NCBI GenBank assembly: GCA_027488985.1
Contig: JAIYAR010000009.1
Location: forward strand, 372,001-436,000
Direction of reading: 5' to 3'
Source: Comamonadaceae bacterium
Lineage (GTDB): Bacteria; Pseudomonadota; Gammaproteobacteria; Burkholderiales; Burkholderiaceae_C
DNA: 64,000 nucleotides
How positions within the stretch are numbered: position 1 is the stretch's first letter; the number at the start of each line of letters is the position of its first letter. The position numbers were made by a program, and so were the translations under genes. Below the pieces are notes generated by a model. It did no database searches, had not been told where the DNA came from, and saw nothing but the letters and a program-made list of their open reading frames with translations. Below, piece by piece: positions 3,535 to 61,718 of the stretch.

Positions 3535-3577
3535 TAGCGCTCGTTAAATATGCGCTACTAGCTATCAAAAGCATAGC
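3535..3577 (-). repeat. Dispersed 43-bp-register repeat, copy 1
   Basis: An intergenic copy between the DUF1330 gene and valS. It reads TAGCGC, 11 bases, GCGC, 9 bases ending AGCTA, 8 bases, ATAGC. Strand is set so that the GCTAT end comes first. The outer TAGCGC and inner GCGCTA can pair. The spacing is identical to the other copies in this window. Confidence 0.8.
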
Positions 3578-3604
3578 GAATATCGGACTACAGCCCTGCA
3601 CCGG

Positions 3605-3610
3605 TAAAAT
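3605..3610 (+). promoter_or_regulatory. Possible -10 element of the valS promoter
   Basis: TAAAAT lies 27 bases upstream of the valS ATG and matches the sigma-70 -10 consensus at five of six positions. No good -35 hexamer lies 16-18 bases upstream, so the call is tentative. Confidence 0.35.
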
Positions 3611-3636
3611 CGCCGCTCGCTCTTAGAAGAACCTCC

Positions 3637-6576
3637 ATGTCTGACAACGCCAACACCCCCATTGCCGCCCCCACCGCCCCCGAACAACCGGGTCTGCAAT
3701 CCCTCTCCAAATCGTTCGAGCCCGCTGCGCTGGAAGCGCACTGGGGCCCCGAGTGGGAAAAGCGCGGCTACGGCATAGCCGGCTTCCGCGGCACCAGCTC
3801 GCCGGATGCCGCTGCGGCAGCGCAGGGAAAGAACTTCTCCATCCAGCTGCCCCCACCCAATGTGACCGGTACGCTGCACATGGGCCATGCGTTCAACCAG
3901 ACCATCATGGACAGCCTAACCCGCTACCACCGCATGGCCGGTTTCAACACCGCATGGATTCCTGGCACGGACCACGCCGGCATTGCCACCCAGATCGTGG
4001 TGGAGCGCCAGCTGCAAGAGCAAAAAGTCAGCCGCCACGACCTGGGTCGTGAGGCTTTCACCAAAAAGGTCTGGGAGTGGAAAGAAAAGTCCGGCAACAC
4101 CATCACCACCCAGATGCGCCGCATGGGCGACAGCGTGGACTGGAGCCGCGAATACTTCACCATGGACCCCAAGTTGTCGCAAACGGTCACCGAGACCTTT
4201 GTGCAGCTCTACGAGCAAGGCCTGATTTACCGCGGCAAGCGACTGGTGAACTGGGACCCGATCTTGATGAGCGCGGTGTCGGACCTAGAAGTGGAAAGCG
4301 AAGAGGAAGACGGTTCGCTCTGGCACATCCGTTACCCGTTGGCCGACGGCTCCGGTGACATCACTGTAGCCACCACCCGCCCAGAGACCATGCTGGGCGA
4401 CGTGGCCGTGATGGTGCACCCCGAAGACGAGCGCTACACCGCGCTGATCGGCAAGCAAGTCACCCTGCCCCTGTGCGGCCGCACCATCCCCGTGATTGCG
4501 GACGATTACGTGGACAAGGCCTTCGGTACCGGCGTGGTGAAGGTCACCCCCGCCCACGACCAGAACGACTATGCCGTCGGCCAGCGCCACAAGCTGCCCA
4601 TGATCTGCGTGCTCACCCTGGACGCCAAGATCAACGAGAATGCCCCCGCTGCCTACCAAGGCCTGGACCGTTTTGTGGCCCGCAAAAAAGTGGTGGCAGA
4701 CCTCGAAGCCGGTGGTTTCTTGGTTGAGGTGAAAAAGCACAAGCTCATGGTGCCGCGTTGCGCCCGCACCGGCCAGGTCATTGAGCCCATGCTGACTGAC
4801 CAGTGGTTTGTCGCCATGAACCAAGTCGGCAAAGGCGACGCCACCGGCAAGTCCATCGCCCAGAAAGCCATCGACGCGGTGCAAAGCGGCGAAGTGAAGT
4901 TTGTGCCCGAAAACTGGGTCAACACCTACAACCAGTGGATGAACAACATCCAGGACTGGTGTATCAGCCGCCAACTCTGGTGGGGCCACCAGATCCCGGC
5001 GTGGTACGACGAAGACGGCAACGTGATCGTGGCCCGTAACGAAGCCGAGGCCCAAGCCAAGGCGCCCGGCAAAAACCTGCGCCGCGATGAAGACGTGCTC
5101 GACACCTGGTACTCCAGCGCACTGGTGCCGTTCTCGACCATGGGCTGGGGCAACGAAGGCGCCGGCACTGGTGTCAGCGACGACTACAACCTCTACCTAC
5201 CCAGCAGCACGCTGGTGACCGGCTACGACATCATCTTCTTCTGGGTCGCCCGGATGATCATGATGACCACGCACTTCACCGGCCGCGTGCCGTTCAAGCA
5301 CGTCTACATCCACGGCCTGGTGCGCGATGCCCAGGGCAAGAAGATGAGCAAATCCGAGGGCAATGTGCTTGACCCCGTGGACTTGATCGACGGCATTGCG
5401 CTCGCTCCCTTGCTGGACAAGCGCACTACCGGCCTGCGCAAGCCCGAGACGGCGCCAGCGGTGCGCAAGAACACCGAAAAAGAGTTCCCCGAAGGCATTC
5501 CCGCCTACGGTGCTGACGCGCTGCGCTTCACCTTTGCAGCACTCGCCTCGCTGGGACGCAGCATCAACTTCGACAGCAAGCGTTGCGAGGGCTACCGCAA
5601 TTTCTGCAACAAGCTGTGGAACGCCACCCGCTTTGTACTGATGAACTGCGAAGGCCAGGACTGCGGCTTGCTGGAGCACACCAAGGAACAGTGCGCCCCC
5701 GGAGACGTTGCCCACGGCTACCTGGAGTTCAGCCAGAGTGACCGTTGGATCGTGTCGCTGCTGCAAAAGACCGAGGCCGACGTGGCCCAAGGCTTTGCCG
5801 ACTACCGTTTGGACAATGTCGCCAACACGATTTACGACTTCGTGTGGAACGAGTTCTGCGACTGGTACCTGGAAATTGCCAAGGTACAGATCAACACCGG
5901 CACTGACGCGCAAAAACGCGCCACTCGCCGCACCCTGATCCGCACCCTCGAGACCATCCTGCGCATGGCACACCCCATCACGCCTTTCATCACCGAAGAG
6001 CTGTGGCAAAAGGTAGCGCCCGTGGCCGGTCGTGGCGGCCCATCGATCTCGATTGCGGCCTACCCCGTCAGCCAGCCCGAGCGCATTGACGAAGCCGCGA
6101 TTGCGCACGTCGCCAAGCTCAAGCAACTGGTGGACGCATGCCGCAACCTGCGTGGCGAAATGAACGTGTCGCCTGCGACCCGTCTGCCCCTGTATGTGGT
6201 GGCCCAGACAGAAGCTGAAGGTGCTTTCCTGCAATCGTCTGCCGCCGTGCTGCAGGCATTGGCCAAGTTGAGTGAAGTGAAGCTCTTCGACAACGAGGCT
6301 GCATGGCAAGCCGCTGCCCAGTCTGCCCCGGTGGCGGTGGTGGGTGAAGCCCGCGTATGCCTGTTTGTGGAAGTGGACGTGGCGGCCGAAAAGCTGCGTT
6401 TGGGCAAGGAAGTCAGCCGCCTGGAAGAGCAGATTGCCAAAGCCAGCACCAAACTCAACAACGAAGCTTTCGTTGCCAAGGCCCCTGCTGCCGTGCTGGA
6501 GCAGGAACGCAAGCGTGTGGCGGATTTCGCCGCCACCCTGACCAAGGTGCAAGAGCAGCTGGCCCGCTTGGGCTGA
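3637..6576 (+). CDS. valS: Valine--tRNA ligase
   Basis: A class I aminoacyl-tRNA synthetase that charges tRNA-Val. The 979 residues are slightly longer than the E. coli enzyme (951), mainly from an N-terminal extension of about 20 residues. The HIGH-type motif is HMGH at residues 81-84, within [13 protein letters not shown]. The editing (CP1) domain follows with [18 protein letters not shown] is at 569-573 ([14 protein letters not shown]). The anticodon-binding helices carry [10 protein letters not shown]. The last 65 residues form the family's coiled-coil arm ([20 protein letters not shown]). A clear terminator follows the gene, so it is probably a single-gene unit. Confidence 0.98.
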
Positions 6577-6603
6577 TGCCAAGTTTGCCGGTACGCCGGC
6601 AGA

Positions 6604-6637
6604 CAACAAAAAAGCCGGCTCCAAGCCGGCTTTTTTG
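6604..6637 (+). terminator. Bidirectional intrinsic terminator after valS
   Basis: A stem AAAGCCGGCT / AGCCGGCTTT with a short loop is followed by a T run on the plus strand. It is preceded by an A run, which gives a T run on the minus strand. It serves valS and the convergent tusA-like gene. Confidence 0.9.
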
Positions 6638-6657
6638 TGAGCGTGCTGATCGCAATG

Positions 6658-6885
6658 TCAGCGGCGACGCAGCACGTGGATGAACATGGTTCCTACGGTT
6701 TGCTGGTCCACGAGTTCATGCCCGGTCTGCTTGGTGAAAGCCTGGAAATCGCGCAACGAACCGGGGTCGGTAGCCAGCACCTTGAGAGTCTGTCCACTGT
6801 GCAATTCAGCCAGCGCTTTCTTGGCTTTCAGGATGGGGAGCGGGCAATTCAAACCGCTGGTGTCAATTTCTTTGTCGAAGTTCAT
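6658..6885 (-). CDS. TusA-family sulfurtransferase
   Basis: A 75-residue protein of the TusA/SirA-like family, which passes persulfide sulfur to acceptors in tRNA thiolation, molybdenum cofactor synthesis or sulfur metabolism. The signature CPLP follows LDTSGLN-type residues, with the active cysteine at residue 14 (GLNCPLPILKAKKAL). The rest fits the compact beta-alpha fold (TLKVLATDPGSLRDF, then GHELVDQQT). It lies 30 bases downstream of the Nudix gene on the same strand, with cysM upstream of that, so a sulfur-related group is possible. Whether it is true TusA or a paralogue cannot be told. Confidence 0.85.
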   Translation of the reverse strand: MNFDKEIDTSGLNCPLPILKAKKALAELHSGQTLKVLATDPGSLRDFQAFTKQTGHELVDQQTVGTMFIHVLRRR

Positions 6886-6915
6886 GCAGGCTGCTTTCTG
6901 GCGTTGGAGCAGATT

Positions 6916-7467
6916 TTAGTCGGCCCGTTGCTCGATGTCTTTGCGCCATACCGGATCGATGAACTGTGGCACATAGCCACGGGAGCGCAAAAACTCAGCG
7001 AGGGCATAACCGGTGCCTGCGGGCCAGCATTTGACGTCCTCCAAGTCGTACAGGCGGTAGTCCACCAGCTCGGGGCTGAGATTCACATCTCCATCACACA
7101 CCGCGTGATAGGCAATGATGACCTGGTTCATGCGTTGGAAGTCATACACCCCCAAGAGCTTGAGAGCACTGGTGTGCAGATTGGTCTCCTCTGAAATTTC
7201 CCGCGCAATGCCTTCCTCGGGCGTCTCGCCGGCTTCCATGAAGCCGGTAATCAACGCATACATCTTGCCGGGCCAGGCGGCATTGCGGGCCAAAAGCACT
7301 TTCCCGCGGTACTCAATCACCGCCGCAAGGACGGGTGTGGGGTTGTTCCAGTGCGTGAATTCGCAGGACGGGCAACGCAGGCGTGTTTTGTCGCCTCCGT
7401 CTTCGGCCAGGGTGATCTCGGCCAATGGTGTAGCGCATTGCGGGCAAAACTTGAAAACTGCAGACAT
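6916..7467 (-). CDS. Zinc-ribbon Nudix hydrolase
   Basis: A 183-residue cytoplasmic hydrolase of nucleoside-diphosphate-linked compounds. An N-terminal zinc ribbon uses Cys8, Cys11, Cys32 and Cys35. The Nudix box spans residues 75-97 (GFMEAGETPEEGIAREISEE) and has Asn where the consensus has its last Gly. The arrangement resembles NudC-like NAD(H)/NADH-cap hydrolases but lacks their N-terminal domain, so the substrate is open. The ATG at 7467 is chosen because residues upstream of MSAVFKFCPQC would be read out of the dispersed repeat at 7478-7520. It follows cysM on the same strand after 74 bases. Confidence 0.85.
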   Translation of the reverse strand: MSAVFKFCPQCATPLAEITLAEDGGDKTRLRCPSCEFTHWNNPTPVLAAVIEYRGKVLLARNAAWPGKMYALITGFMEAGETPEEGIAREISEETNLHTSALKLLGVYDFQRMNQVIIAYHAVCDGDVNLSPELVDYRLYDLEDVKCWPAGTGYALAEFLRSRGYVPQFIDPVWRKDIEQRAD

Positions 7468-7477
7468 GGAAGCCTTT

Positions 7478-7520
7478 GCTATTGTTTCAGGAGCTGCCCG
7501 CGCAATATCCACGAGCGCCG
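7478..7520 (+). repeat. Dispersed 43-bp-register repeat, copy 2
   Basis: An intergenic copy between cysM (stop at 7542) and the Nudix gene (start at 7467), inside the leader of the Nudix gene. It reads GCTAT, 8 bases, GAGCTGCCC, GCGC, 11 bases, GCGCCG, then a GGCCTATTT-like flank ending near 7531. Confidence 0.8.
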
Positions 7521-7541
7521 ATGGCCTATTTACCTTAAATT

Positions 7542-8444
7542 TCAGGCGGGAAAAACACCGGTAGACAAGTAACGGTCGCCGCGGTCGCACACGATGAAAA
7601 CGATCACCGCATCGCGCTCGCGTTTGGCGATTTCCTGTGCCACCCAGCATGCACCGGCAGCAGAAATGCCACCGAAAATGCCCTCTTCCCGCGCCAGGCG
7701 GCGGCACATGTCTTCGGCGTCACCCTGGCTTACGTAGATCAGCTCGTCCACGTTGGACGGGTCGTAAATCTTGGGCAGGTATTCCTGCGGCCACTTGCGG
7801 ATGCCGGGAATGCGCGAGCCTTCAGAGGGCTGCGCGCCGACGATGCGAATGGCAGGGTTCTTCTCTTTCAGATAACGAGAGACACCTGTGATAGTGCCTG
7901 TAGTGCCCATGGCGCTCACAAAGTGGGTCACACGCCCGCCGGTTTGTTCCCAGATCTCAGGGCCGGTCGTTTCGTAATGAATTCGCGGGTTGTCGCCGTT
8001 GGCGAACTGGTCCAGCACGCGGCCTTTGCCTTCACGCTGCATCTGTTCCGCGAGGTCCCGCGCGTACTCCATGCCGCCGCTCTTGGGCGTGAGGATCAAC
8101 TCAGCGCCAAAGGCCTTCATGGTCTGTGCACGCTCGATGGACAGGTCCTCAGGCATGATCAAAATCATGCGATAGCCCTTGACTGCAGCAGCCATGGCCA
8201 ACGCAATGCCGGTGTTGCCGGAGGTGGCTTCAATAAGCGTATCGCCGGGCTGAATGTCACCGCGCTCCTGGGCGCGCTGGATCATGGAGAGTGCGGGGCG
8301 GTCTTTGACTGAACCCGCAGGGTTGTTGCCTTCGAGCTTGCCTAGCAATACGTTGTTGCGGGCGAGGTTGTCTGTAGCCTGAATGCGTTGCAGGGCCACC
8401 AAAGGTGTTTTTCCGATTGCTTCTTCAATGGTTGGATATTTCAT
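7542..8444 (-). CDS. cysM: Cysteine synthase B (O-acetylserine sulfhydrylase)
   Basis: A PLP enzyme that makes cysteine from O-acetylserine and sulfide or thiosulfate. The 300-residue length fits CysM. The PLP lysine is Lys47 in AGSVKDRPAL. The substrate loop is EATSGNTGIALA, and the C-terminus FIVCDRGDRYLSTGVF is typical of the CysM branch rather than CysK. The ATG at 8444 (MKYPTIEEAIGKTPLV) starts the conserved fold. The upstream in-frame ATG at 8474 would run close to the tRNA gene and is rejected. The gene is divergent from tRNA-Leu, with a 39-base gap. Confidence 0.93.
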   Translation of the reverse strand: MKYPTIEEAIGKTPLVALQRIQATDNLARNNVLLGKLEGNNPAGSVKDRPALSMIQRAQERGDIQPGDTLIEATSGNTGIALAMAAAVKGYRMILIMPEDLSIERAQTMKAFGAELILTPKSGGMEYARDLAEQMQREGKGRVLDQFANGDNPRIHYETTGPEIWEQTGGRVTHFVSAMGTTGTITGVSRYLKEKNPAIRIVGAQPSEGSRIPGIRKWPQEYLPKIYDPSNVDELIYVSQGDAEDMCRRLAREEGIFGGISAAGACWVAQEIAKRERDAVIVFIVCDRGDRYLSTGVFPA

Positions 8445-8457
8445 GCCATAAATGTGC

Positions 8458-8463
8458 CATAAT
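8458..8463 (+). promoter_or_regulatory. Possible -10 element for tRNA-Leu
   Basis: CATAAT lies 20 bases before the tRNA 5' end and matches the -10 consensus at five of six positions. A weak TTGGAT at 8432-8437 would give a long 20-base spacer, so the -35 is doubtful. Confidence 0.35.
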
Positions 8464-8483
8464 TCGAGCTTCACGGAATACCT

Positions 8484-8568
8484 GCCCAGGTGGTGAAATT
8501 GGTAGACTCAGGGGACTCAAAATCCCCCGCCGCAAGGCGTGCCGGTTCGAGTCCGGCCCTGGGCACCA
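8484..8568 (+). tRNA. tRNA-Leu (anticodon CAA)
   Basis: An 85-base class II tRNA. The acceptor GCCCAGG pairs with CCTGGGC, followed by discriminator A and an encoded CCA. The D-loop carries TGGTAGA. The anticodon stem GGGGA/TCCCC holds loop CTCAAAA, giving anticodon CAA, which reads UUG. There is a long variable arm (CGCCGCAAGGCG), and the T-arm GGTTCGAGTCC is standard. Confidence 0.97.
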
Positions 8569-8574
8569 GATTAA

Positions 8575-8606
8575 AGCCGAATGTTCTTGCAACATTCGGC
8601 TTTTTC
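8575..8606 (+). terminator. Intrinsic terminator of tRNA-Leu
   Basis: The stem AGCCGAATGTT / AACATTCGGCT (11 bp) with a five-base loop is followed by TTTTTC. It lies 7 bases after the CCA end. Confidence 0.92.
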
Positions 8607-8699
8607 TTTGTCCGGGTTCCGGCTGACAATGCCCCGATCCGGTGTATGCCCGAAACGGCTTGCATCACAATCCCCCTTTCCCCGCCACTTGCATTCACC

Positions 8700-9416
8700 A
8701 TGTTCATTCGCCTTACTGAAGACCACACACCTCTTTTGTTTTGGAAACTGGTGGCGGCTTCTGTTTTGGTGGCGCTGATCCCCACCTTCTGGCCTGAGCT
8801 GGACCTGCGTGCTGCTGCGCTGTTTACCGGAGCCACGCCCGCGATCGAATCGAGCCGTTGGTGGTGGGTGGAGTGGATCAATGCGTGGGTGCCCGCCGCA
8901 TTCCGCACTTTGCTAGCCATTTGCGCACTAGGCTGGTTGCTTGCCCACTTTGCGTCGCGCTGGAAGGCATGGCGCCTGCCCCTGGCATTTGTGGTGTGCG
9001 CCGGCATTGCGGGACCGGGTGCCATCGTCAACTGGGGTTTCAAAGAGAACTGGCAACGCGCCCGCCCTTACCAGGTCGAAAACTTCGGTGGCACCCAGCA
9101 ATTCAGTCGCGCGACCGTGATGACCGACCAATGCGACAACAACTGCTCTTTTGTCAGCGGGCATGTGGCCTGCGGTTTCTTCTTCAGCAGCCTGATGCTT
9201 ATCCACCTGCGCAGGCGTAAAGCCTGGCTATTGGTGGGTACCGCTGCCGGATTGGCCATCGGCTTCTCCCGTATGTCGGCTGTTGCCCACTGGTTCAGTG
9301 ACGTGCTGTGGGCCTACCCGATCACACTGATGAGCAGTTGGCTCGTCTGGCAACTGCTGTCGCGGCTCTACGGCTTTGCGGGCCCAGACACCAAACCGGA
9401 AGCCACGTCCGGGTAA
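8700..9416 (+). CDS. PAP2-family membrane phosphatase
   Basis: A 238-residue inner-membrane protein with about five or six hydrophobic segments. All three PAP2 motifs are present: KENWQRARP, then SFVSGH, then SRMSAVAHWFSDV with the catalytic His. The family dephosphorylates lipid phosphates such as phosphatidylglycerol phosphate or undecaprenyl pyrophosphate. The ATG at 8700 is chosen because the reading frame upstream runs back through the tRNA gene. The 3' end overlaps the convergent epimerase-like gene by 49 bases. Substrate is unknown. Confidence 0.85.
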   Translation: MFIRLTEDHTPLLFWKLVAASVLVALIPTFWPELDLRAAALFTGATPAIESSRWWWVEWINAWVPAAFRTLLAICALGWLLAHFASRWKAWRLPLAFVVCAGIAGPGAIVNWGFKENWQRARPYQVENFGGTQQFSRATVMTDQCDNNCSFVSGHVACGFFFSSLMLIHLRRRKAWLLVGTAAGLAIGFSRMSAVAHWFSDVLWAYPITLMSSWLVWQLLSRLYGFAGPDTKPEATSG

Positions 9417-10297: not shown

Positions 10298-10339
10298 AAT
10301 CGAGGGTTGTTGACAAAGCAGCCACCTAGGATACCGAAG

Positions 10340-11389: not shown

Positions 11390-11397
11390 CCAAACAA

Positions 11398-11439: not shown

Positions 11440-12435
11440 TTACAGGGTCAGGATGGTGCAACCGGTGGTCAGGCGGGCTTCCAAGTCTTTGTGGGCCTGT
11501 TGCACGTCTTCCAGGGCATAGCGCTGGGCGATGTGGATGTTGACTTTGCCACTCAGCACGATGTCAAACAAGTCGTCCGCCATGGCCTGCGTGCTTTCGC
11601 GGGTAGCAATGTGCGTGAACAGGGTTTGGCGAGTCACATAGATGGAGCCCTTGGGCCCGAGGATGCCGGGTGAGAACGGGGCCACGGGACCCGATGCATT
11701 GCCGAAGCTCGCCATCAAGCCGAAGGGGGCCAGACAATCCAGCGACTTGTCCCAGGTGTCTTTGCCCACCGAGTCGTACACCACTTTCACCCCTTTGCCG
11801 CCTGTGATTTCCTTGACACGGGCCGCAAAGTCTTCCGCTCTGTAATTGATAGCATGCTCCGCACCATTGGCGAGCGCCAGAGCACATTTTTCTTCTGAAC
11901 CGGCAGTTCCAATCAGGCGCAAGCCCAAAGCCTTGGCCCACTGGCAGGCAATCAGGCCTACCCCACCCGCCGCCGCATGGAAGAGCACAAAGTCACCGGC
12001 CTGCAAGCCGCCTTGAGGCAGCGTGCGCTTGAGCAGGTACTGGGCGGTCAGGCCCTTGAGCATCATGGCGGCACCGGTTTCGAAACTGATGCCATCTGGC
12101 AGCTTGCACACGCACTTGGCAGGCATCACCCGCACTTCGCAGTAGCTGCCCGGCGGCTGGCTGGCGTAGGCGGCGCGGTCGCCCACCTTGAGATGACTCA
12201 CACCCTCGCCCACTGCTTCAATAACGCCCGCTGCTTCCATACCCAACTGCACCGGCAGATTCATAGGGTACAGGCCGGAGCGCTGGTACACGTCGATGAA
12301 GTTCAGCCCCACCGCATGGTGGCGCATGCGCACCTCACCGGGGCCGGGTTCGCCCACCGTGACCTGCACCAACTGCAGCTGTTCGGGGCCGCCATGCTGG
12401 GCGATGTGAATGGCGCGGGATGTCACTGAACTCAT
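11440..12435 (-). CDS. Zinc-independent NADPH:quinone oxidoreductase family protein
   Basis: A 331-residue medium-chain dehydrogenase/reductase of the quinone oxidoreductase (Qor) type, which reduces quinones or activated alkenes with NADPH. Markers are the N-terminal PGPGEVRMRHHAVGLNFIDVYQRSG, GMEAAGVIEAVG, the cofactor segment AAAGGVGLIACQWAKALG, and GAEHAINYRAEDF. The catalytic and structural zinc cysteines of alcohol dehydrogenases are absent, as expected. The ATG at 12435 has a GGAGACAA ribosome site. It converges with the ferredoxin reductase gene and is divergent from the EamA carrier gene. Confidence 0.88.
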   Translation of the reverse strand: MSSVTSRAIHIAQHGGPEQLQLVQVTVGEPGPGEVRMRHHAVGLNFIDVYQRSGLYPMNLPVQLGMEAAGVIEAVGEGVSHLKVGDRAAYASQPPGSYCEVRVMPAKCVCKLPDGISFETGAAMMLKGLTAQYLLKRTLPQGGLQAGDFVLFHAAAGGVGLIACQWAKALGLRLIGTAGSEEKCALALANGAEHAINYRAEDFAARVKEITGGKGVKVVYDSVGKDTWDKSLDCLAPFGLMASFGNASGPVAPFSPGILGPKGSIYVTRQTLFTHIATRESTQAMADDLFDIVLSGKVNIHIAQRYALEDVQQAHKDLEARLTTGCTILTL

Positions 12436-20069: not shown

Positions 20070-20864
20070 CTAAAAAGTACCGCCGAATGCCCCTCCGTCC
20101 ACCAGCACGTTCTGGCCTGTCATGTAGCCGGCTTGCTGGCTGCACAGGAAAGCGCAGACCTGGCCGAACTCGGCCGGTGTGCCATAGCGGCCCACCGGAA
20201 TCTGGGCCTGCTGCAGGCGGCGGATGTCTTCCACACTCTGGCCGGTTTTAGCCGAAGTGGCCTTCACGGTGGCGGCAATGCGATCGGTATCGAACTTGCC
20301 GGGCAGCAGGTTGTTGATGGTCACACCCTTGGCGGCCAGGCTGCTGCGAGCCACGCCGGCCACAAAGCCGGTCAGACCACTGCGCGCACCATTGGACAGG
20401 CCCAGTATGTCGATGGGCGACTTCACCGCGCTGGAGGTGATGTTCACAATGCGCCCGAAACCGCGCGCGGCCATGCCGTCCACCGTGGCCTTGATGAGCT
20501 CGATGGGGGTGAGCATGTTGGCGTCCACCGCCTTGATCCAGGCCTCGCGGTCCCAGTCGCGGAAGTCGCCGGGCGGCGGGCCGCCGGCGTTGGTAACCAC
20601 GATGTCAAAGTCCGCGCGCATGGCAAATACGGCCGCACGACCAGCCACCGTGGTAATGTCCTGGGCACAAAAAAGCACCTCAGCGCCCGTCTTGTCTGCG
20701 TGAACCGCTCTCAAATTCATAGCAGATTGCTCCAGAGCCTCCGCACCCCGCGCCACGATCAGCAGGTTCACACCCTCGGCGGCCAGCGCTTGCGCACAAC
20801 CCAGACCCAGCCCCTTGCTGGCACCACACACCAATGCCCATTTGCCTTTGATTCCCAAATCCAT
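20070..20864 (-). CDS. SDR family oxidoreductase with altered active site
   Basis: A 264-residue short-chain dehydrogenase/reductase. The NAD(P) motif is CGASKGLGLGCAQALAAEG, and the NNAG-type motif is VVTNAGGPPPG. The catalytic serine region is NITSSAVKSPIDILGLSNGARSG. Where classical members have YxxxK, this one has SNGAR (Tyr to Ser, Lys to Arg). A C-terminal DVDGG-like LVDGGAFGG is present. Similar SNGAR proteins occur in other betaproteobacteria as far as I recall, so this is likely a subfamily rather than a mutant. Residues near 50-65 are encoded by dispersed repeat copy 3. The substrate is unknown. Confidence 0.83.
   Translation of the reverse strand: MDLGIKGKWALVCGASKGLGLGCAQALAAEGVNLLIVARGAEALEQSAMNLRAVHADKTGAEVLFCAQDITTVAGRAAVFAMRADFDIVVTNAGGPPPGDFRDWDREAWIKAVDANMLTPIELIKATVDGMAARGFGRIVNITSSAVKSPIDILGLSNGARSGLTGFVAGVARSSLAAKGVTINNLLPGKFDTDRIAATVKATSAKTGQSVEDIRRLQQAQIPVGRYGTPAEFGQVCAFLCSQQAGYMTGQNVLVDGGAFGGTF
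20681..20723 (-). repeat. Dispersed 43-bp-register repeat, copy 3 (inside the SDR gene)
   Basis: On the plus strand: CAGCGC, 11 bases, GCGT, 9 bases, 8 bases, ATAGC, in the same register as the intergenic copies. In the gene's sense it begins GCTAT and encodes part of AMNLRAVHADKTGA. The GCGC core is changed to GCGT here. Confidence 0.7.
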
Positions 20865-20903: not shown

Positions 20904-21839
20904 TTAGCGCCGGCTACTCACCACATACACACCCAGCAGCACCAAAATGGTGCCCGCCACAATCCACAGGTTCATGGGCTCATCCAGCAGCAGCACTCCC
21001 ATGAAGATGGTGGACATAGGCCCCACCATGCCCACCTGCGCAGCCAGACCGGAGCCGATGCGTTCGATCGCCATCATCACCATCAGTACCGGCACCACGG
21101 TGCAGGCCGTCGCATTGAGCAGCGAGAGCCACAGCACCTCCGGTGCCACGGCAAATGCGGTGTCCAGCGGCCGCAACAGCACAAACTGCGCAATGCACAG
21201 CACGCAAGCCACGCTGGTGGCCAAACCCACCAGCCGCAGGGAACCCAGGCGTTGCACCAGCTCGCCGCTGTAGCTCAGGTACAGCGCGTAACTGATGGCG
21301 CTGCCCAGCACCAGGGCTGCGCCCAGCGCCACATGGCTGCCGGCCAAGGTCACTTCGTGGCCGAACACCAGCAGCACGCCGCCGTAACTGATGGCCATGC
21401 CCACGCCCTGCGGCAAGGTGACCTTTTTGCCGTACAAGGCCACGCCCAGCAACACGACCAGCGTGGGGTTGAGGTAAAGAATCAGCCGTTCCAGCGAGGC
21501 GGAGATGTAGGCCAGCCCCGCAAAGTCCAGATAGCTGGCGAGGTAGTAGCCGGTAATCCCCAGGCCCAGAATGCCCAGCTTGTCTCGGGTGGTCAGCGCC
21601 ACCACGTCCCGGCCCATGCGTCGGGCACGCGGGCCGGTCCACCACACGATGACCAAGAAGAATGGCAGCGCCATCAACATACGCAGCATGATGAGGCTGA
21701 CCGCATCTACCCCGGGGTAGCGGTAGGCCAGCTTGACGATGATGGCCTTGCCACTAAAGGCAATGGCACCGGCTATCGCCAGGGCCAAACCGGTTGCTAT
21801 GGATTTAGGAGCTGCTTGCACAGATTGCACGCGCGCCAA
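20904..21839 (-). CDS. EamA (DMT) family transporter
   Basis: A 311-residue inner-membrane carrier with about ten hydrophobic segments and two EamA units. Markers are GLALAIAGAIAFSGKAIIVKLAYRY at the start, YLASYLDFAGLAYISASLERLILYLNPTLVVLLG in the first half, and GLAAQVGMVGPMSTIFMGVLLLDEP in the second. There is no ATG before the first membrane segment. The start is TTG at 21839 or GTG at 21830. Its first dozen codons are made of dispersed repeat copy 4. It lies 3 bases after the DUF808 stop on the same strand, so they are probably co-transcribed. Substrate is unknown. Confidence 0.8.
   Translation of the reverse strand: MARVQSVQAAPKSIATGLALAIAGAIAFSGKAIIVKLAYRYPGVDAVSLIMLRMLMALPFFLVIVWWTGPRARRMGRDVVALTTRDKLGILGLGITGYYLASYLDFAGLAYISASLERLILYLNPTLVVLLGVALYGKKVTLPQGVGMAISYGGVLLVFGHEVTLAGSHVALGAALVLGSAISYALYLSYSGELVQRLGSLRLVGLATSVACVLCIAQFVLLRPLDTAFAVAPEVLWLSLLNATACTVVPVLMVMMAIERIGSGLAAQVGMVGPMSTIFMGVLLLDEPMNLWIVAGTILVLLGVYVVSSRR
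21796..21838 (+). repeat. Dispersed 43-bp-register repeat, copy 4 (start of the EamA gene)
   Basis: GCTAT, 8 bases, GAGCTGCTT, GCAC, 11 bases, GCGCCA, then a GGCTATTTT flank. On the minus strand the copy spans the TTG start region and codes for the MARVQSVQAAPKSIA-type N-terminus of the permease. The flank reaches the DUF808 stop codon. Confidence 0.75.
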
Positions 21840-21842
21840 TGG

Positions 21843-22745
21843 CTATTTTCCCTTGAAACCACTGCGTACGCGCTGCACGAGCATCACAGCGGCCAGCACG
21901 AGTGCGCCGGCCACAATGCCGACCAGGCCTTCCCACACAAAGCCCAAGGGCAGGCCTTCCAGCAGATGATGCAAAAACGGCAAGCCGTGCACCAGAATGC
22001 CGCCACCCACCAGAAACATGGCTGCGGTGCCTGCCACTGACAGCACCTTCATCAGCACCGGCGCGGCGCGCAGCAAACCACGCCCCAGCGCCTGGGTGAA
22101 GCCGCCTTCGGGGGTGGCGGAAGGCCGGCGGGTCAGGTAAAGGCCCAGATCATCAATCTTCACGATGCCGGCCACCAGACCGTACACACCCACCGTCATG
22201 ATCAGGGCGACGCCGGCCAGCACGGCCAGCTGCGTCGTCCATGGCACGGCTTGCACCGTGCCGAGGGTGATTGCGATGATTTCGGCGGAGAGGATGAAGT
22301 CGGTCCGGATGGCACCCTTGATCTTGTCTTTTTCCAGTGCCACCAGATCCACCGCGGGGTCTTGCAAGGCCTTTAGAAGCTCAGCCTCGTGGGCCTGGTC
22401 GTCTTCTGCACGGTGCAGAAACTTGTGGGCCAACTTCTCAAAGCCTTCAAAGCACAAAAAGGCCCCGCCCACCATGAGCAGCGGTGTCACCAACCAGGGC
22501 GCCACGATGCTGATAGCCAGGGCTGCGGGCACCAAAATCACCTTGTTCAGCAGCGAGCCTTTGCATACCGCCCACACCACCGGAATTTCGCGATCGGCGG
22601 ATACGCCGGTGACCTGCTGTGCATTGAGCGCAAGGTCGTCGCCCAGCACGCCGGCGGTTTTCTTGGCGGCAACTTTGCTAAGGACAGCCACGTCATCAAG
22701 AATGGTGGCAATGTCATCCAAAAGGGCGAGAAGGCTGCTGGCCAT
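21843..22745 (-). CDS. DUF808 family membrane protein (YedI-like)
   Basis: A 300-residue inner-membrane protein of the DUF808/YedI family, whose function is unknown. It starts [44 protein letters not shown], the strongly conserved family N-terminus. Then come several hydrophobic segments ([33 protein letters not shown]) and [19 protein letters not shown]. The ATG at 22745 is chosen because the family begins there. An upstream ATG at 22796 adds unrelated residues. Confidence 0.88.
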
Positions 22746-23958: not shown

Positions 23959-23996
23959 GGTCCAAACCAGCACGCACTTGCTATCGGCAAGCGGAC

Positions 23997-24039
23997 GCTA
24001 CGAAATCAGGAGCTACTGGCGCACTATTGATAGGCGCCA
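23997..24039 (+). repeat. Dispersed 43-bp-register repeat, copy 5
   Basis: GCTAC, 8 bases, GAGCTACTG, GCGC, 11 bases, GCGCCA. In this copy the two arms are perfectly complementary for 12 bases. Confidence 0.8.
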
Positions 24040-24051
24040 GTAGCTTTTTTT
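24011..24051 (+). terminator. Intrinsic terminator built from repeat copy 5
   Basis: AGCTACTGGCGC (24011-24022) and GCGCCAGTAGCT (24034-24045) form a perfect 12-bp stem with an 11-base loop, followed by a run of seven T. It ends the SRPBCC transcript 53 bases after the stop codon. Confidence 0.85.
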
Positions 24052-24095
24052 ATTGGGCAAAGAAATCTGCTGGCGATCCAAAGCAGACGCATCTT

Positions 24096-31825: not shown

Positions 31826-32122
31826 GGCCGCTGTGAGAGGGCGAATCCCCGGCTTCTCTGCAGCCAACTGCTTATTCTTGGTGAGTGAATCGTAGACGCC
31901 AACTGGCTTGGTGTTCCGAGTCGAAATGTAGCGATAACTTGCTCTCTAGTCTCCTCGCATTGCACCATTGATTTTGCTGATTCAATAACTGAAGCAGTCA
32001 TTCTCAGGAGCCTGCGTCTGGCCCAAAGCCGCCTTTGTCAGTTCACTCCAAAACATTGACAAAATCGCTTGCAGCGCTTACCGAATATGCGCAAGCAGCT
32101 ACCAAATTTATAGCATTTCGCA
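31826..32122. other. Intergenic region (297 bases) between convergent genes
   Basis: The longest gap in the window. Apart from repeat copy 6 near its right end I see no gene, tRNA or clear terminator. No convincing coding sequence was found on either strand in the first 220 bases, which may be decayed sequence. Confidence 0.5.
32072..32114 (-). repeat. Dispersed 43-bp-register repeat, copy 6
   Basis: CAGCGC, 11 bases, GCGC, 9 bases ending AGCTA, 8 bases, ATAGC. It lies just past the stop of the SBF-like carrier gene. Confidence 0.8.
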
Positions 32123-45690: not shown

Positions 45691-46314
45691 ATGGCGCAGT
45701 ATTTCGAAGTTCACCCCGATAACCCCCAGCCCCGCTTGCTCAAGCAGGCCATTGCCCTGCTTGAAAAAGGCGGCATTCTGGCGGTGCCTACCGACTCCAG
45801 CTACGCACTGGTCTGCCACCTGGACGACAAGGCCGCTGCCGACAAATTGCGCAGCATCCGCGGGGTGGATGACAAACACCACCTGACGCTGCTGTGCCGC
45901 GACCTGAGTGAGCTGGCCAACTACGCGCGTGTAGACAACAAGCAATACCGCCTGCTCAAAGCCGCCACACCGGGTGCCTACACCTTCATTCTGGAAGCCA
46001 GCAAAGAAGTGCCGCGCCGGGTGAGCCACCCTTCACGCAAGACCATTGGCCTGCGGGTGCCGGAGCATCAAGTGCTCCAGGAGCTGCTAGCGCTTTACGG
46101 ATCTGCGCTGCTAGCTACTACTTTGATAGCAAAAGGCGAATCCGAACCGCTCAACGACGCGCACGACATCCGGGAACGCTACGAACACCAGATTGCTGCC
46201 GTCATCGACGCCGGCGCTTGTGCATTGGAGCCCACCACTGTCATTGACCTGACCGGCGATGAGCCGGAGCTGATCCGCCAAGGTCGCGGAGACCCCGCAT
46301 TGCTCGGGCTCTGA
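45691..46314 (+). CDS. YciO/Sua5/YrdC-family protein
   Basis: A 207-residue protein of the YrdC domain family, which makes threonylcarbamoyl-AMP for tRNA t6A. The YciO branch may have a distinct role. Markers are GGILAVPTDSSYALVCHLDDKAAADKLRSIRGVDDKHHLTLL near the N-terminus, GAYTFILEASKEVPRR, and RKTIGLRVPEH. The piece LLALYGSALLATTLIAKG at about 132-149 is read from dispersed repeat copy 7, yet lines up with the LLSTTL-type segment of YciO. The C-terminus TTVIDLTGDEPELIRQGRGDP is standard. The gene follows the PHP gene by 42 bases. Confidence 0.87.
   Translation: MAQYFEVHPDNPQPRLLKQAIALLEKGGILAVPTDSSYALVCHLDDKAAADKLRSIRGVDDKHHLTLLCRDLSELANYARVDNKQYRLLKAATPGAYTFILEASKEVPRRVSHPSRKTIGLRVPEHQVLQELLALYGSALLATTLIAKGESEPLNDAHDIRERYEHQIAAVIDAGACALEPTTVIDLTGDEPELIRQGRGDPALLGL
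46088..46130 (-). repeat. Dispersed 43-bp-register repeat, copy 7 (inside the YciO-like gene)
   Basis: TAGCGC, 11 bases, GCGC, 9 bases ending AGCTA, 8 bases, ATAGC, in exact register with the intergenic copies. It is read in frame by the YciO-like gene without a stop codon. Confidence 0.75.
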
Positions 46315-55929: not shown

Positions 55930-55951
55930 CCCGGGCGGCCTGCCCGCCGCT

Positions 55952-56935
55952 TTATTCGATCTTCAGATTCTGGGTGCGCACCACGTCACGCCATGCTTGG
56001 TAATCCGCCTCGATGAAACGGGTTTGGGCTGAGGGAGTACCGGGCATGGCGTCCACCGCGTCCACTTTGAAGCGGGCCTGCACCTCGGGCAGAGCAACGA
56101 CTTTGTTCAGGGCCGTGTTGAGTTTCTCAATCACCGCAGCTGGTGTTCCTGCAGGCGCAGCCAGGGCGAAGAAGTTCTGCACATCAAAGCCCTTGAAGCC
56201 AGCCTCGGTCATGCTGGGTACATCGGGCATGGCGCTGGAGCGTTTGGCACTGGTCACAGCCAGAGGCTTGACCCGGCCTTCCTTGATCATGGGCAGCAAC
56301 GCGGGGATGGTGCCCGTAACCAACTGCAGCTGGCCGGAGATCATGTCCATGGTGGCAGGCGCCACGCCACGGTAGGGAATATGCGTGATGAAGGTGCCGG
56401 TGCGTGCTTTGAGCAATTCCAACACCAAATGATTCACACCGCCGGCACCTGCGGAACCGTAATTCAGTGCGCCAGGTTGTGCCTTGGCTTTGTTCACCAA
56501 ATCTTGCATGGAAGTAATGCCGGTTTGTGGCGTGGTAGCCCAGACCAAGGGGCCACTGGCAATCATGCCCACAGGCGTGAAGCTCTTGACAGGGTCATAG
56601 CCCGCAGTAGGCAAGGACGCTGCCACTGTGGTGAAAGGTGAGGCGATCAGGAGCAAGGTGTAGCCGTCGGCAGCCTGTTGCGCCACGTACTGGGTGCCGA
56701 TGGCACCGGAAGCACCGGTGCGGTTTTCCACCACAAAGCTGCCACCCATCACCTCGCCCAGCTTCTGGGCCATCAGACGGCCCATGGCATCGGTTCCGGC
56801 GCCGGGTGCGAAGGGCACGACGATCTTGACTGGTTTTTCGGGGAAGCTGCCCTGTGCCCGGGCACCAGTGATGCAAAGACCTGCCAGCATCAAGGTAAAC
56901 AACGTGGAACGGCGGGAAGTGAAAGCGGTTTTCAT
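55952..56935 (-). CDS. Bug-family tripartite tricarboxylate transporter substrate-binding protein
   Basis: A 327-residue periplasmic receptor with a signal peptide (STLFTLMLAGLCITGARAQG). The family opening FPEKPVKIVVPFAPGAGTDAMGRLMAQKLGE is clear, followed by VVENRTGASGAIGTQYVAQQAADGYTLLL and a C-terminal MTEAGFKGFDVQNFFALAAPAGTPAAVIEKLN. Such receptors are greatly expanded in Comamonadaceae and bind carboxylates or aromatic acids. No membrane partner genes (TctA/TctB) are near, so it may be an orphan receptor. It converges with the hydrolase gene. Confidence 0.92.
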   Translation of the reverse strand: MKTAFTSRRSTLFTLMLAGLCITGARAQGSFPEKPVKIVVPFAPGAGTDAMGRLMAQKLGEVMGGSFVVENRTGASGAIGTQYVAQQAADGYTLLLIASPFTTVAASLPTAGYDPVKSFTPVGMIASGPLVWATTPQTGITSMQDLVNKAKAQPGALNYGSAGAGGVNHLVLELLKARTGTFITHIPYRGVAPATMDMISGQLQLVTGTIPALLPMIKEGRVKPLAVTSAKRSSAMPDVPSMTEAGFKGFDVQNFFALAAPAGTPAAVIEKLNTALNKVVALPEVQARFKVDAVDAMPGTPSAQTRFIEADYQAWRDVVRTQNLKIE

Positions 56936-57023
56936 GGTGAAAGCACTGGAGAGTGAGTCTTAAAGATCTCCACTATGGGCGCATCGAATTGCAAACCCAT
57001 GACATCCTTGTAAACACATACTG

Positions 57024-57052
57024 TTGACACTGTCCATATGGCAAAGAAGAAT
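57024..57052 (+). promoter_or_regulatory. Possible sigma-70 promoter of the orphan membrane protein gene
   Basis: TTGACA (57024-57029) matches the -35 consensus fully. A 17-base spacer leads to AAGAAT (57047-57052), which matches the -10 consensus at four of six positions. The start codon is 31 bases downstream. Confidence 0.45.
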
Positions 57053-57082
57053 GTTTGATAGCCTCAAATTGAAGGAATGACT

Positions 57083-57877
57083 ATGTCGATATCGGCAATG
57101 GGTGATTTGCAGTCTTGGGCGCACATCCATGGGGCAGGTTGGAGCTTGGCGTCCAAGGCGCTGATCGTCTATGGCGGCTTGATGGCATTGGCAATGGCTA
57201 TCACTTACTTCGTGTCCTTGAGTGACGCACGGACGATCCGGGACGTTGGCATTTGGGCCAAACCCATGAAATTCATGGCTGCCACGGCGCTATTTGCATG
57301 GACTACCGTGTGGCTGACGCACTTGGCCAGCAACACAGTTGCAAACGGGAGCGCTTTTACCTGGATCGCACTATTGCTCATCATCACTTCACTGTTTGAA
57401 GTGGTTTACATCACCTACCAGGCGTCCCAAGGCGCGGCGTCTCACTACAACACCAGCGACCCGGTTCACGCCCGATTGTTCGGTCTCATGGGGATCGCAG
57501 CGGTGGGCTTGACGGCATCCCAAGCCTGGCTGGCTTGGGAAATCTGGAAGGTTCAGAATAGCCCGGACATCCCGGTTGTCACACTGAGCGTCATCGTAGG
57601 ATTGATACTCACTTTTTTGCTGGCTACAGTGAGTGGTTTTCTATTGGGTGGCAACCAGCCACCACCCGGGCAAGGTCTGCCAATCGTTGGCTGGCATTTG
57701 CACAAAGACATTCGACCATCGCACTTTCTGGGCGTGCATGCCCAGCAATTCATTCCCTTGCTCGGGCTATTTGCAGAGCGGTTTCTGGGGAACTGGGCCA
57801 CTCAAGGCTTTGGCGTGGGAACAACGCTGTACGTGGTCGCGTGGGCGGTTTTGACTTGGACCGGCCTCAGCGCCTAG
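57083..57877 (+). CDS. Hypothetical multi-pass membrane protein
   Basis: A 264-residue protein I do not recognise. About seven hydrophobic segments are seen: ALIVYGGLMALAMAITYFVSL, KFMAATALFAWTTVWLTHLA, TWIALLLIITSLFEVVYITYQA, GLMGIAAVGLTASQAWLAW, VVTLSVIVGLILTFLLATVSGFLL, a reentrant QFIPLLGLFAE and TTLYVVAWAVLTWTGL. A His in GWHLHKDIRPSHFLGVHAQQF could bind a metal or haem. The ATG at 57083 is preferred over 57077 because of its distance to GAAGGA at 57071-57076. Function is unknown. Confidence 0.65.
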   Translation: MSISAMGDLQSWAHIHGAGWSLASKALIVYGGLMALAMAITYFVSLSDARTIRDVGIWAKPMKFMAATALFAWTTVWLTHLASNTVANGSAFTWIALLLIITSLFEVVYITYQASQGAASHYNTSDPVHARLFGLMGIAAVGLTASQAWLAWEIWKVQNSPDIPVVTLSVIVGLILTFLLATVSGFLLGGNQPPPGQGLPIVGWHLHKDIRPSHFLGVHAQQFIPLLGLFAERFLGNWATQGFGVGTTLYVVAWAVLTWTGLSA

Positions 57878-57891
57878 TCGGTCGGCCCATG

Positions 57892-57917
57892 AAAAAAGCC
57901 CGCAACCCATTCGGGCT
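57892..57917 (-). terminator. Intrinsic terminator of tRNA-Ser
   Basis: On the minus strand AGCCCG / CGGGCT forms a 6-bp stem followed by TTTTTT. It lies 15 bases past the tRNA CCA end. Confidence 0.8.
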
Positions 57918-57932
57918 GCAGGCTTCGTCATT

Positions 57933-58022
57933 TGGCGGAGAAGGTGGGATTCGAACCCACGGTAGGGTCGCCCCTACGCTTGATTTCGAGTCAAGTACAT
58001 TCGACCACTCTGCCACTTCTCC
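57933..58022 (-). tRNA. tRNA-Ser (anticodon CGA)
   Basis: A 90-base class II tRNA on the minus strand. The acceptor GGAGAAG pairs with CTTCTCC, discriminator is G and the CCA is encoded. The anticodon stem CTTGA/TCAAG encloses CTCGAAA, giving anticodon CGA, which reads UCG. There is a long variable arm (GCGTAGGGGCGACCCTAC) and a T-arm GGTTCGAATCC. It lies 62 bases downstream of serS, the enzyme that charges it. Confidence 0.97.
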
Positions 58023-58084
58023 TGAATTCGCATCGGTCGAAACGAAGCCGCGATTCTAGCAGGCTCCGCCAACCGACCACTGCC

Positions 58085-59419
<1,335 letters not shown>

Positions 59420-59427
59420 TCAGGCTC

Positions 59428-59470
59428 TAGCGCCCTATTCTATTGCGCGAGCAGCTATGTTTTTCATAGC
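59428..59470 (-). repeat. Dispersed 43-bp-register repeat, copy 9
   Basis: TAGCGC, 11 bases, GCGC, 9 bases ending AGCTA, 8 bases, ATAGC. It lies in the 89-base gap between ispH and serS, upstream of serS on its coding strand. Confidence 0.8.
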
Positions 59471-59484
59471 GACCCGCACTGTGC

Positions 59485-60435
59485 TCATGCGTCCAGCTTC
59501 AGGCCTTTGGGCAGCGGGAACTTCACGGTTTCTTCAATGCCGTCCATCTTGCGCACCGACACGGCGCCCAGCGCCTTGATGCGGTCGATCACGGCTTTCA
59601 CCAGTATCTCAGGGGCGCTGGCGCCTGCAGTAAGGCCCACGCGGGAGCGGCCTTCAAACCACTCGGGCTTGAGCTCATCGGCGTTGTCCACCATGTAGCT
59701 CTCGGTGCCCAGCTTCTTGGCCACTTCGCGCAGGCGGTTGCTGTTGGAGCTGGTGGGGCTGCCCACCACAATCACGATGTCGACTTGCGGGCTCATCACC
59801 TTCACTGCGTCCTGGCGGTTCTGGGTGGCGTAGCAAATGTCCTGCATCTTGGGCTTTTTGATCAGCGGGAAGCGGGCGACCACCGCATCGGTAATCTCCT
59901 TTGCGTCGTCCACACTCAGGGTGGTTTGCGTCACCACGGCCAGTTTGGTGGTCTGGCTGGGCTGCACTTTGGCTACGTCGGCCACGTCTTCCACCAAGTG
60001 AATCCCGCTATCGAGCTGCCCCATGGTGCCTTCCACCTCAGGGTGGCCCTTATGGCCGATCATGATGAACTCGTAGCCCTCTTTGTGCAGCTTGGCTACT
60101 TCCACGTGCACCTTGGTCACCAGCGGGCAGGTGGCGTCAAAAATCTGGAAACCACGTCGCTCCGCCTCGCGCTGGATGGCCTGGCTCACGCCATGGGCTG
60201 AGAATACCAGTGTGGCACCCGGCGGCACATCGTCCAGCTCTTCAATGAAGATGGCGCCGCGCTCCTTGAGGTCGTTTACCACGTAGGTGTTGTGCACGAT
60301 CTCGTGACGTACGTAGATGGGGCGGCCGAACTTGGCCAAGGCTTTTTCCACGATTTCGATGGCACGGTCCACGCCGGCACAAAAGCCACGTGGCTCAGCC
60401 AGCAAAATCTCTTGGGGTAATACCGGCGCAGTCAT
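59485..60435 (-). CDS. ispH: 4-hydroxy-3-methylbut-2-enyl diphosphate reductase
   Basis: The last step of the non-mevalonate isoprenoid pathway, making IPP and DMAPP with a 4Fe-4S cluster. The 316-residue length fits. Cluster ligands are Cys in PRGFCAGVDRAIEIVEK near residue 19, DATCPLVTKVHVEV near 100 and DICYATQNRQDAV near 200. A conserved VVGSPTSSNSNRL and a final IDRIKALGA-type region are present. The gene starts within the fkpB stop region (4-base overlap), so ispH is translated from an fkpB-ispH transcript. This is the usual linkage in betaproteobacteria. Confidence 0.97.
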   Translation of the reverse strand: MTAPVLPQEILLAEPRGFCAGVDRAIEIVEKALAKFGRPIYVRHEIVHNTYVVNDLKERGAIFIEELDDVPPGATLVFSAHGVSQAIQREAERRGFQIFDATCPLVTKVHVEVAKLHKEGYEFIMIGHKGHPEVEGTMGQLDSGIHLVEDVADVAKVQPSQTTKLAVVTQTTLSVDDAKEITDAVVARFPLIKKPKMQDICYATQNRQDAVKVMSPQVDIVIVVGSPTSSNSNRLREVAKKLGTESYMVDNADELKPEWFEGRSRVGLTAGASAPEILVKAVIDRIKALGAVSVRKMDGIEETVKFPLPKGLKLDA

Positions 60436-60896
60436 AGCACTCCGATCAGCTGCACTTCAAAGGTCACCGGCTGGCCGGCAAGCGGATGGTTGAAGTCGAA
60501 CAACACGGCCCGCTCCGCGCCCTCGCCACGCAGTTGCAGCACCACACCGGCAAACTGGCCTTGGCCATCGGGCGTGGGGAACTGCACCACATCGCCCACG
60601 TTGTAGGTCTCCAGCGGGTCGCCCATCTGGGTCAGCACCTTGCGGGCCAGCCATTGCTGCATGTCAGGGTTGCGCTCGCCAAAGGCAGCGCCTGCCGGCA
60701 GCTCAAAGGTGGCGCGTGCGCCCTCTTCCATGTCCATCAAGCAGGCCTCGACCGCAGGCGACAGCTCGCCAGTGCCCAGGCTCAGGGTAGCGGGCTTGCC
60801 GTCGAAGGTGTTGATGATGTCCCCGGCGGGGCCGCCCAGGCGGTAATGCAAGGTGAGAAAGGAGCCCGGCTGAACCCGGGGAAGCGTGCTGGTCAT
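60432..60896 (-). CDS. fkpB: FKBP-type peptidyl-prolyl isomerase FkpB (SlpA)
   Basis: A 154-residue prolyl isomerase and chaperone of the SlyD-like group. Its opening FLTLHYRLGGPAGDIINTFDGKPATLSLGTGELSPAVEACLMDMEEGAR matches the FKBP half-domains. The flap insert (ERNPDMQQWLARKVLTQ) and NHPLAGQPVTFEVQLIGV end are standard. The ATG at 60896 is preferred over an upstream ATG at 61154, whose extra residues would overlap radC. It overlaps ispH by 4 bases. No metal-binding tail as in SlyD is present. Confidence 0.9.
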   Translation of the reverse strand: MTSTLPRVQPGSFLTLHYRLGGPAGDIINTFDGKPATLSLGTGELSPAVEACLMDMEEGARATFELPAGAAFGERNPDMQQWLARKVLTQMGDPLETYNVGDVVQFPTPDGQGQFAGVVLQLRGEGAERAVLFDFNHPLAGQPVTFEVQLIGVL

Positions 60897-60920
60897 AAAA
60901 GTCCCGATAAACTGCCCTCT

Positions 60921-60926
60921 ATTGTA
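60921..60926 (-). promoter_or_regulatory. Possible -10 element for fkpB-ispH
   Basis: TACAAT on the minus strand, 25 bases upstream of the fkpB start, matches the -10 consensus at five of six positions. The -35 region is weak. Confidence 0.35.
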
Positions 60927-60998
60927 GAAAGCCAGGCCTGATAACCCCATCCGGCACTGGTTTGGCCCTGAATTCACCCTTGCACAGCCTCTGCTGCC

Positions 60999-61718
60999 AT
61001 GCCCCTCAAAGACCTCCCTCTGGAAGCCCAACAGCGCGAGAAGTTGCTCGCGCGCGGCCCAGGGGCGCTCAGCGATGCGGAGTTGCTGGCCATTTTGTTG
61101 CGCACCGGCATTGCGGGCAAAGGGGTGTTGCAGATGGCTGAAGAGCTTTTGCAACTCAAAAATGATAGCGCTTCACGCACAGCCGACGGGCGCCAAGGCG
61201 GGTTTGGAGGCATAGCCGGCTTGCTGCATGCCACGGCAGACGACCTCAAGCGCGTCAAAGGCCTGGGGCCTGCCAAGCGGGCCGAGATCGTGGCGGTGCT
61301 CGAGCTCGCCCGCCGCGCCATGGCGCAGCGCCTGCAGGAGCGCGAGGTGTTTGCCGACCCGCAGGCCGTCAAGCACTACCTGCAACTGCACCTGGCCGCC
61401 AAAGGGCATGAGGTGTTTGCGGTGCTTTTCTTGGACAGCCAAAACAAACTGCTGGCCATGGAAGAGCTGTTTCGCGGCACGCTTACTCAAACCAGCGTGT
61501 ACCCCCGCGAAGTCGTCATCCGCGCGCTGCACCACAGTGCGGCCGCCGTGGTACTGGCGCATAACCACCCCAGCGGCAGTGTGCGGCCCAGCCGTGCGGA
61601 CGAGGCTCTCACGCAAACACTCAAGGCCGCACTCGCACTGGTGGATGTGCGGGTGCTGGACCACATCATCGTAGGCCCCGGCCAGGCACTGTCCATGGCC
61701 GAGACCGGACTCATCTAA
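60999..61718 (+). CDS. radC: RadC family protein (JAMM domain) with an in-frame repeat insert
   Basis: A 239-residue protein with an N-terminal helix-hairpin-helix part and a C-terminal JAMM (MPN) metalloprotease-like domain. The metal motif is [15 protein letters not shown] (HxH, then Asp). A role in DNA repair was proposed and later disputed, and function remains open. Compared with E. coli RadC, about 16 residues are extra near 50-66 ([16 protein letters not shown]). They fall on dispersed repeat copy 10. The domain that follows ([32 protein letters not shown]) is intact, so the protein is probably functional. Divergent from fkpB over 102 bases. Confidence 0.92.
61153..61195 (+). repeat. 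Dispersed 43-bp-register repeat, copy 10 (inside radC)
   Basis: The GCTAT end is degraded, but TAGCGCTTC, ACGC, 11 bases and GCGCCA follow in the standard register. The flank GGCGGGTTTGG matches the GCCTATTTG-type end of other copies. It encodes the extra residues of RadC. Confidence 0.65.

Follow-up and report, generated by a model that had tools for sequence, protein, structure and literature searches.

The 64-kb window analyzed here (the whole stretch of 64,000 nucleotides, taken from the assembly GCA_027488985.1 of a Comamonadaceae bacterium) contains, between and within its genes, the copies of a dispersed repeat whose conserved unit is 66 bp long. The ten copies listed in the initial annotation were all found, nine of them full and one weak (listed at 61153; 61151-61216, in radC), and an eleventh copy, absent from that list, is present at 11835-11900 (36.6 bits). 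Ten copies of the window are 66 bp long with a GC content of 47%. The fixed length reported initially was upheld by a rigid register, whereas the 43 bases taken as the unit proved to be its left two thirds. In the + orientation, the unit is composed successively of the base before GCTAT, RKAGCTGCTYGCGCA, an ATTCCA-like middle, RRGCGCTA, GAGGCC, an ATTTT tract and a terminal AA. It is sharply bounded, since in a 93-row alignment the information rises at -1/0 and fades near +63, with random flanks. This alignment was obtained from 98 collected copies by dropping 5 duplicates; 7 matches with six mismatches were left unused, and 3 others had been removed by hand before the collection (an overlapping reverse reading, a match starting with GCC and one at 232403).

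Copies of the 66-bp site in the window (scores in bits, from the 66-bp profile)
Site	Position	Strand	Bits	Remark
Full 66-bp site, intergenic	3514..3579	-	68.5	
Full 66-bp site, intergenic	7476..7541	+	61.3	
Site in quinone oxidoreductase gene 11440-12435(-)	11835..11900	+	36.6	Protein collinear here with quinone oxidoreductases of known structure
Site in short-chain dehydrogenase gene 20070-20864(-)	20660..20725	-	44.7	4 extra aa here relative to homologues of known structure
Full site overlapping start of EamA transporter open reading frame 20904-21839(-)	21794..21859	+	61.5	Pfam
Full site, intergenic	23995..24060	+	55.3	
Full site, intergenic	32051..32116	-	65.2	
Site in Sua5/YciO/YrdC-family gene 45691-46314(+)	46067..46132	-	38.5	Pfam
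Full site directly past a stop codon	48419..48484	+	72.9	
Full site, intergenic	59407..59472	-	59.7	
Weak site in radC (60999-61718+), tenth copy of the initial list	61151..61216	+	14.7	Pfam

In the window's own genome (G000), the core pattern with up to three mismatches gave 384 matches in 3.56 Mb (191 forward, 193 reverse), and reversed-pattern controls gave none in the same 3.56 Mb. An enrichment above control, the test set by the initial annotation, was also observed with the 66-bp profile, which produced 77 matches of at least 10 bits in 450 kb and none in the reversed sequence. The density is about 110 copies per Mb with the core pattern and about 170 with the profile. The spacing is kept in further copies, as had been supposed: when the two half-sites were scanned independently over the 450 kb (each above 8 bits, using a profile itself built from fixed-register copies), 68 pairs had spacing 0 and a single pair had -6, while ±1 to ±5 and +6 all stayed empty. 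This rigid register argues against transposon copies in decay, for which indels would be expected. The orientation of the copies is neutral with respect to genes (13 tandem-same versus 11 tandem-opposite, 68 copies in all), and many of them are located near gene ends. Their genome-wide excess concerns both strands without polarity, as in DNA uptake sequences (DUS); a replichore polarity, suggested by one-strand matches among those listed for genomes G126 and G178, was dropped when a sampling of G126 revealed none. The spacing between copies is slightly even and not significantly so (coefficient of variation 0.84 versus 0.98, P 0.08), and the strands of neighboring copies look shuffled across all 72 copies. 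On contig 7 of G000 (C7), strands cluster locally at 100-200 kb (L036-L040), with 16 plus versus 3 minus copies. Copies are depleted in low-GC windows, a measure that is a proxy only for rarity in foreign DNA. A copy-free stretch, C7:208000-240000 (L041-L042), has a GC content of 0.48-0.55, and surface-polysaccharide genes are among 10 open reading frames tested from C7 220-240 kb, a part of this stretch. Searches with a single copy as query, a procedure of low sensitivity, gave 0 plasmid and 0 phage records; the exact core pattern occurs in 4 IMG/VR stretches.

The expectation that such sequences are common in Comamonadaceae was confirmed, at least one match being present in 35 of 120 family genomes, one per genus, G000 included. 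Among the good family genomes, 32 of 105 have matches, with counts reaching 393, and in the genus of the window 34 of 60 sampled genomes contain from 1 to 454 each. In a sample taken at the level of the order, matches were limited to 5 of 300 genomes, namely G000, three others of its family and one outside; the 291 genomes belonging to other families of the order yielded one single match with 3 mismatches. The named records among the 14 stretches matching a stricter pattern exactly are Rhodoferax, Acidovorax and Curvibacter, and other genera possess their own variants of the middle part of the motif.

Many copies are situated inside genes (32 of 77, according to our own crude gene caller), 25 of these 32 in one frame, on either strand. 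The small inserted mobile element of the REP/MITE type (repetitive extragenic palindromic sequence, miniature inverted-repeat transposable element) proposed initially would lengthen its hosts, and most of the tested in-gene copies cause no change in host length, a DUF4149 gene being an exception. When 12 element-free congeners were compared, each species counted once, the span between the flanks was exactly 66 nt in 11/12 for folP, 10/11 for lpxB, 8/12 for the SpoU methylase gene and 4/6 for the DUF4149 gene. Codon alignments of folP (33 species) and lpxB (32 species), with or without the motif, contain no indel at the site, and the Sua5-family gene has the same length in the 5 congeners aligned, 4 of them element-free. 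An in-frame insert of 22 aa was considered and abandoned: most tested host genes keep the same length, and FolP, LpxB and the quinone oxidoreductase are collinear with solved structures of other genera, without a 22-residue insert. The short-chain dehydrogenase has 4 extra residues relative to solved structures and likewise no 22-aa insert. Palindromic inserts of the Rickettsia type are in frame and add residues to the host protein; unlike them, the 66-bp site adds none in the tested proteins, apart from the 4 of this dehydrogenase. In the element-free orthologues spanning exactly 66 nt, similarity to G000 compared with mutual similarity is 0.49/0.53 for folP, 0.52/0.57 for lpxB and 0.43/0.49 for the SpoU gene. 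A gain or loss by substitution fits folP, lpxB, the SpoU gene and the Sua5-family gene; it fits neither the DUF4149 gene nor all of the intergenic sites.

The sites of folP, the SpoU methylase gene and lpxB each exceed 10 bits in 19 of 21 bearing species, which belong to ten genera in all and have the site at the same codons; among the element-free species, this holds for 0/12, 0/12 and 0/11. In G134, one of the two misses for the SpoU gene, the site is displaced by an 18-nt indel; the folP site is missing in G023, and G009 has 136 copies elsewhere, yet lacks all three. At the orthologous position of the radC site, the scores are 19.0 (G178), 22.7 (G120), 20.9 (G163) and <18 bits (G126). Between orthologous copies, differences amount to 0.061 at informative and 0.131 at uninformative positions, with 0.132 and 0.124 in the flanks, these pairs not being independent. 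Change at motif positions is thus half as fast as in the flanks. The argument drawn initially from the fixed length, selection on a protein footprint, was upheld. In 29 cases out of 29, the codons of the in-gene site are rarer than those used elsewhere in its gene; the codon CTA, which represents 2.3% of leucine codons, recurs in the folP site (10/11 bearing rows, by eye). On a 32-species tree, the distinction between bearing and free species needs 2 changes, for a root placed at the midpoint as drawn only, and two lineages nested among bearers appear to have lost the motif genome-wide. These losses may be decay, because at three of four sites the free orthologues still partly resemble the motif, with no such resemblance at the DUF4149 gene.

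The hairpin with compensating arm changes described in the initial annotation found no support, the proposed stem pairs occurring at about the independent-column expectation in 101 copies, without covariation. A hairpin or RNA element was rejected in view of this result and of the neutral orientation to genes. The A/T-rich positions are located near 9, 30, 52 and 62, with AA/TT coupling at two of them, and the AA/TT tracts exchange like duplex DNA read by its shape. The motif looks more like a recognition signal for a DNA-binding system than like a jumping repeat, and we consider it more likely than not that the 66-bp unit is a putative double-stranded recognition site kept by selection or biased recombination. 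A trans-acting DNA-binding system would read this site along its whole length, at several hundred places per genome. In most tested genes, the sites would have arisen by base substitution in existing sequence, without insertion; either selection or biased recombination (molecular drive) would then maintain them. We infer that a protein binds the site and that the loss of the motif followed the loss of that protein.

Several observations weigh against this recognition site. It carries about 56 bits, although 13.5 would be enough for 77 places in 450 kb to be marked, and intermediate scores are few (5 of 77 between 10 and 30 bits); both facts suit copying. In repeat families, over-specification results from copying. 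In uptake signals, according to the molecular-drive model, it results from biased recombination, which pushes toward the best match. A further point against the recognition site is the most alike pair of copies, which reaches 0.788 versus 0.741 for shuffles when the 66 positions are all compared. At free positions, copies show no relatedness to one another. This lack of relatedness, the collinearity of the genes and the low number of copies in low-GC windows favor molecular drive over copying. Further difficulties come from individual loci. In the DUF4149 gene, free orthologues are 0.34 similar to G000 versus 0.49 to one another (unmatched baseline 0.30), 3 nt replace the 66 in the bearing species G039 and other spans range from 54 to 81, so that this site may have been gained or lost in one piece. 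The copy at C7:354334 is situated in a linker whose length is reduced by 9 or 54 nt in two free species, and the span varies in length around the copy at C7:285609, near a gene start. At the intergenic site 59407, four element-free congeners are shorter by 41, 71, 71 and 80 nt; at C7:282516, the span is shorter by 32 to 73 nt in four free species and longer in one; a copy of G163 is missing in G120. Insertion may therefore have occurred at intergenic sites and in the DUF4149 gene. Finally, no reader protein was identified, and ComEC, found in 74 of 80 genomes, bearing or not, does not track the motif; being nearly universal, it also put an end to the search for a correlation with competence genes.

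The function of such a recognition site can be envisaged in two ways, an uptake signal and a chromosome-organizing site being about equally likely. It is possible, at a rather low probability, that the motif is a self-recognition signal of the DUS kind, far longer than known ones. Known DNA uptake signals are short, from 10 to about 30 bp. We would propose with the same reserve a 66-bp Burkholderiales uptake-type signal, read by the shape of its duplex, which would dictate codons of core genes in at least 10 genera and vanish genome-wide with its predicted reader. The alternative is a chromosome-organizing site, for example the target of a nucleoid or segregation protein able to bend DNA where A-tracts are phased, a tentative idea consistent with the A/T-rich positions and their AA/TT coupling, the rigid register, the use of both strands, the slightly even (non-significant) spacing and the absence of the motif as a set. 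The lack of replichore polarity argues against it, and the low-GC depletion is not what a purely structural role predicts; moreover, we know of no protein with a site as long as 66 bp.

A REP-like non-autonomous element, spread by a REP-associated tyrosine transposase (RAYT, Y1_Tnp domain) and now mostly fossil, is an unlikely explanation. The search for a RAYT advised in the initial annotation was successful, with a Y1_Tnp match in 35 of the 37 genomes searched in the genus and exactly one in 25; as a mobilizer, this gene was weakened by its occurrence in bearing and element-free species alike. Since it is equally present in element-free species, its presence does not predict the motif, and the bearing genome G150 (91% complete) has no Y1_Tnp match. 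In 8 genomes the RAYT stop codon is directly adjoined by a copy of at least 20 bits in the opposite orientation, and a decayed copy extends over the gene end in those bearing genomes that were examined. A TAGC-type start stands at the RAYT end in 14 of 14 examined genomes with at least 10 copies (by eye), versus 1 clear (G142) and 1 doubtful (G123) case among 17 genomes with fewer than 10. A different RAYT gene, of the MPRRPRIHLDG type (L077:5455-6402, G134 C65), is bordered on both sides by full 66-bp copies in the same orientation. RTAG/GGAG stands before the possible stem, and the length differences at the DUF4149 gene and between genes also suit this explanation. The absence of length change in most tested host genes, the lack of stem covariation and of related copies, the rigid register and the constraint all oppose it. 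The RAYT-adjacent copy is regarded as a further ancient site, although RAYT may once have helped to spread the copies between genes. Blocks resembling AATTGGGGTCAGAnnCCAATTA and GGGGACAYATYAAA follow many RAYT genes, in bearing and element-free species (by eye; L071:5012-5737, G000 C5; L072-L130), and may be end signals belonging to the RAYT unit itself. A transcription terminator or another element acting at the RNA level, suggested by a T-rich stretch after a possible stem and by the copies near gene ends, is very improbable in view of the orientation neutral to genes, the antisense copies within genes, the lack of stem covariation and a window where Rfam, at gathering score, matches only two tRNAs.

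If the 66-bp unit is indeed a recognition site, then, throughout a large part of a bacterial family, a large set of DNA sites constrains the protein sequences of core genes, and its reader system covers far more DNA per site than the uptake or chromosome-marking signals known to us. Its absence as a set from nested lineages would make the missing factor findable by genome comparison, and a REP-like copy number need not mean a mobile repeat.

No report uniting the 66-bp motif was found in the literature, most subscription journals being outside the scope of the search; Tong 2017 and possibly the work on BRE come near. Fragments of the motif are already known, unexplained, from 2017 (PMC5217627). 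In the parts of that article available, unexplained motifs include GCTTAT(N)5AAGCG, with 114 copies in Acidovorax ebreus, and ATAGCT(N)22CAAAAG, with 125 copies in Polaromonas naphthalenivorans, and Rhodoferax ferrireducens had the most significant spaced pairs (140). The Acidovorax pair lies, by eye, within copies among the matches listed for G085 and G088, and a script scan detected it in none of the few fetched copies from 10 genera. The Polaromonas pair shares the ATAGCT block with the 66-bp motif, as compared by motif text and not in the genome. The same portions of the article present these as separate motifs, mostly intergenic, without unit length, family distribution, conservation or mechanism. 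BRE is, from the excerpts available, a small betaproteobacterial repeat, Comamonadaceae included, with some copies in genes (PMC3110155); it is described there as 75-91 bp long with 69% GC and in tandem arrays in Bordetella, and this description of length, GC and tandem arrangement sets it apart from the 66-bp, 47% GC motif. REP/RAYT systems, as far as the sections seen describe them (PMC8266576, PMC3733652), are comparable in copy number, in a GTAG/GGAG-like block and in a RAYT gene next to which bearing species have a copy. The motif is unlike them in that no palindromic hairpin after a GTAG-type tetranucleotide is supported, the tetranucleotide-like block itself being present, and in that it is neither exclusively extragenic nor, in most tested and collinear host genes, inserted. 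It also differs from the DUS of Neisseriaceae and the uptake signal sequences (USS) of Pasteurellaceae by its length of 66 bp, by fewer copies per Mb than DUS and by ComEC, which is not informative here. DUS and USS are described in the portions consulted as having many copies, some of them in genes, lineage variants and no orientation bias, and they are thought to evolve in place by point mutation, not insertion (PMC1939737, PMC3630211). Like these signals, the 66-bp motif has many copies, in genes too, with lineage variants and no orientation bias.

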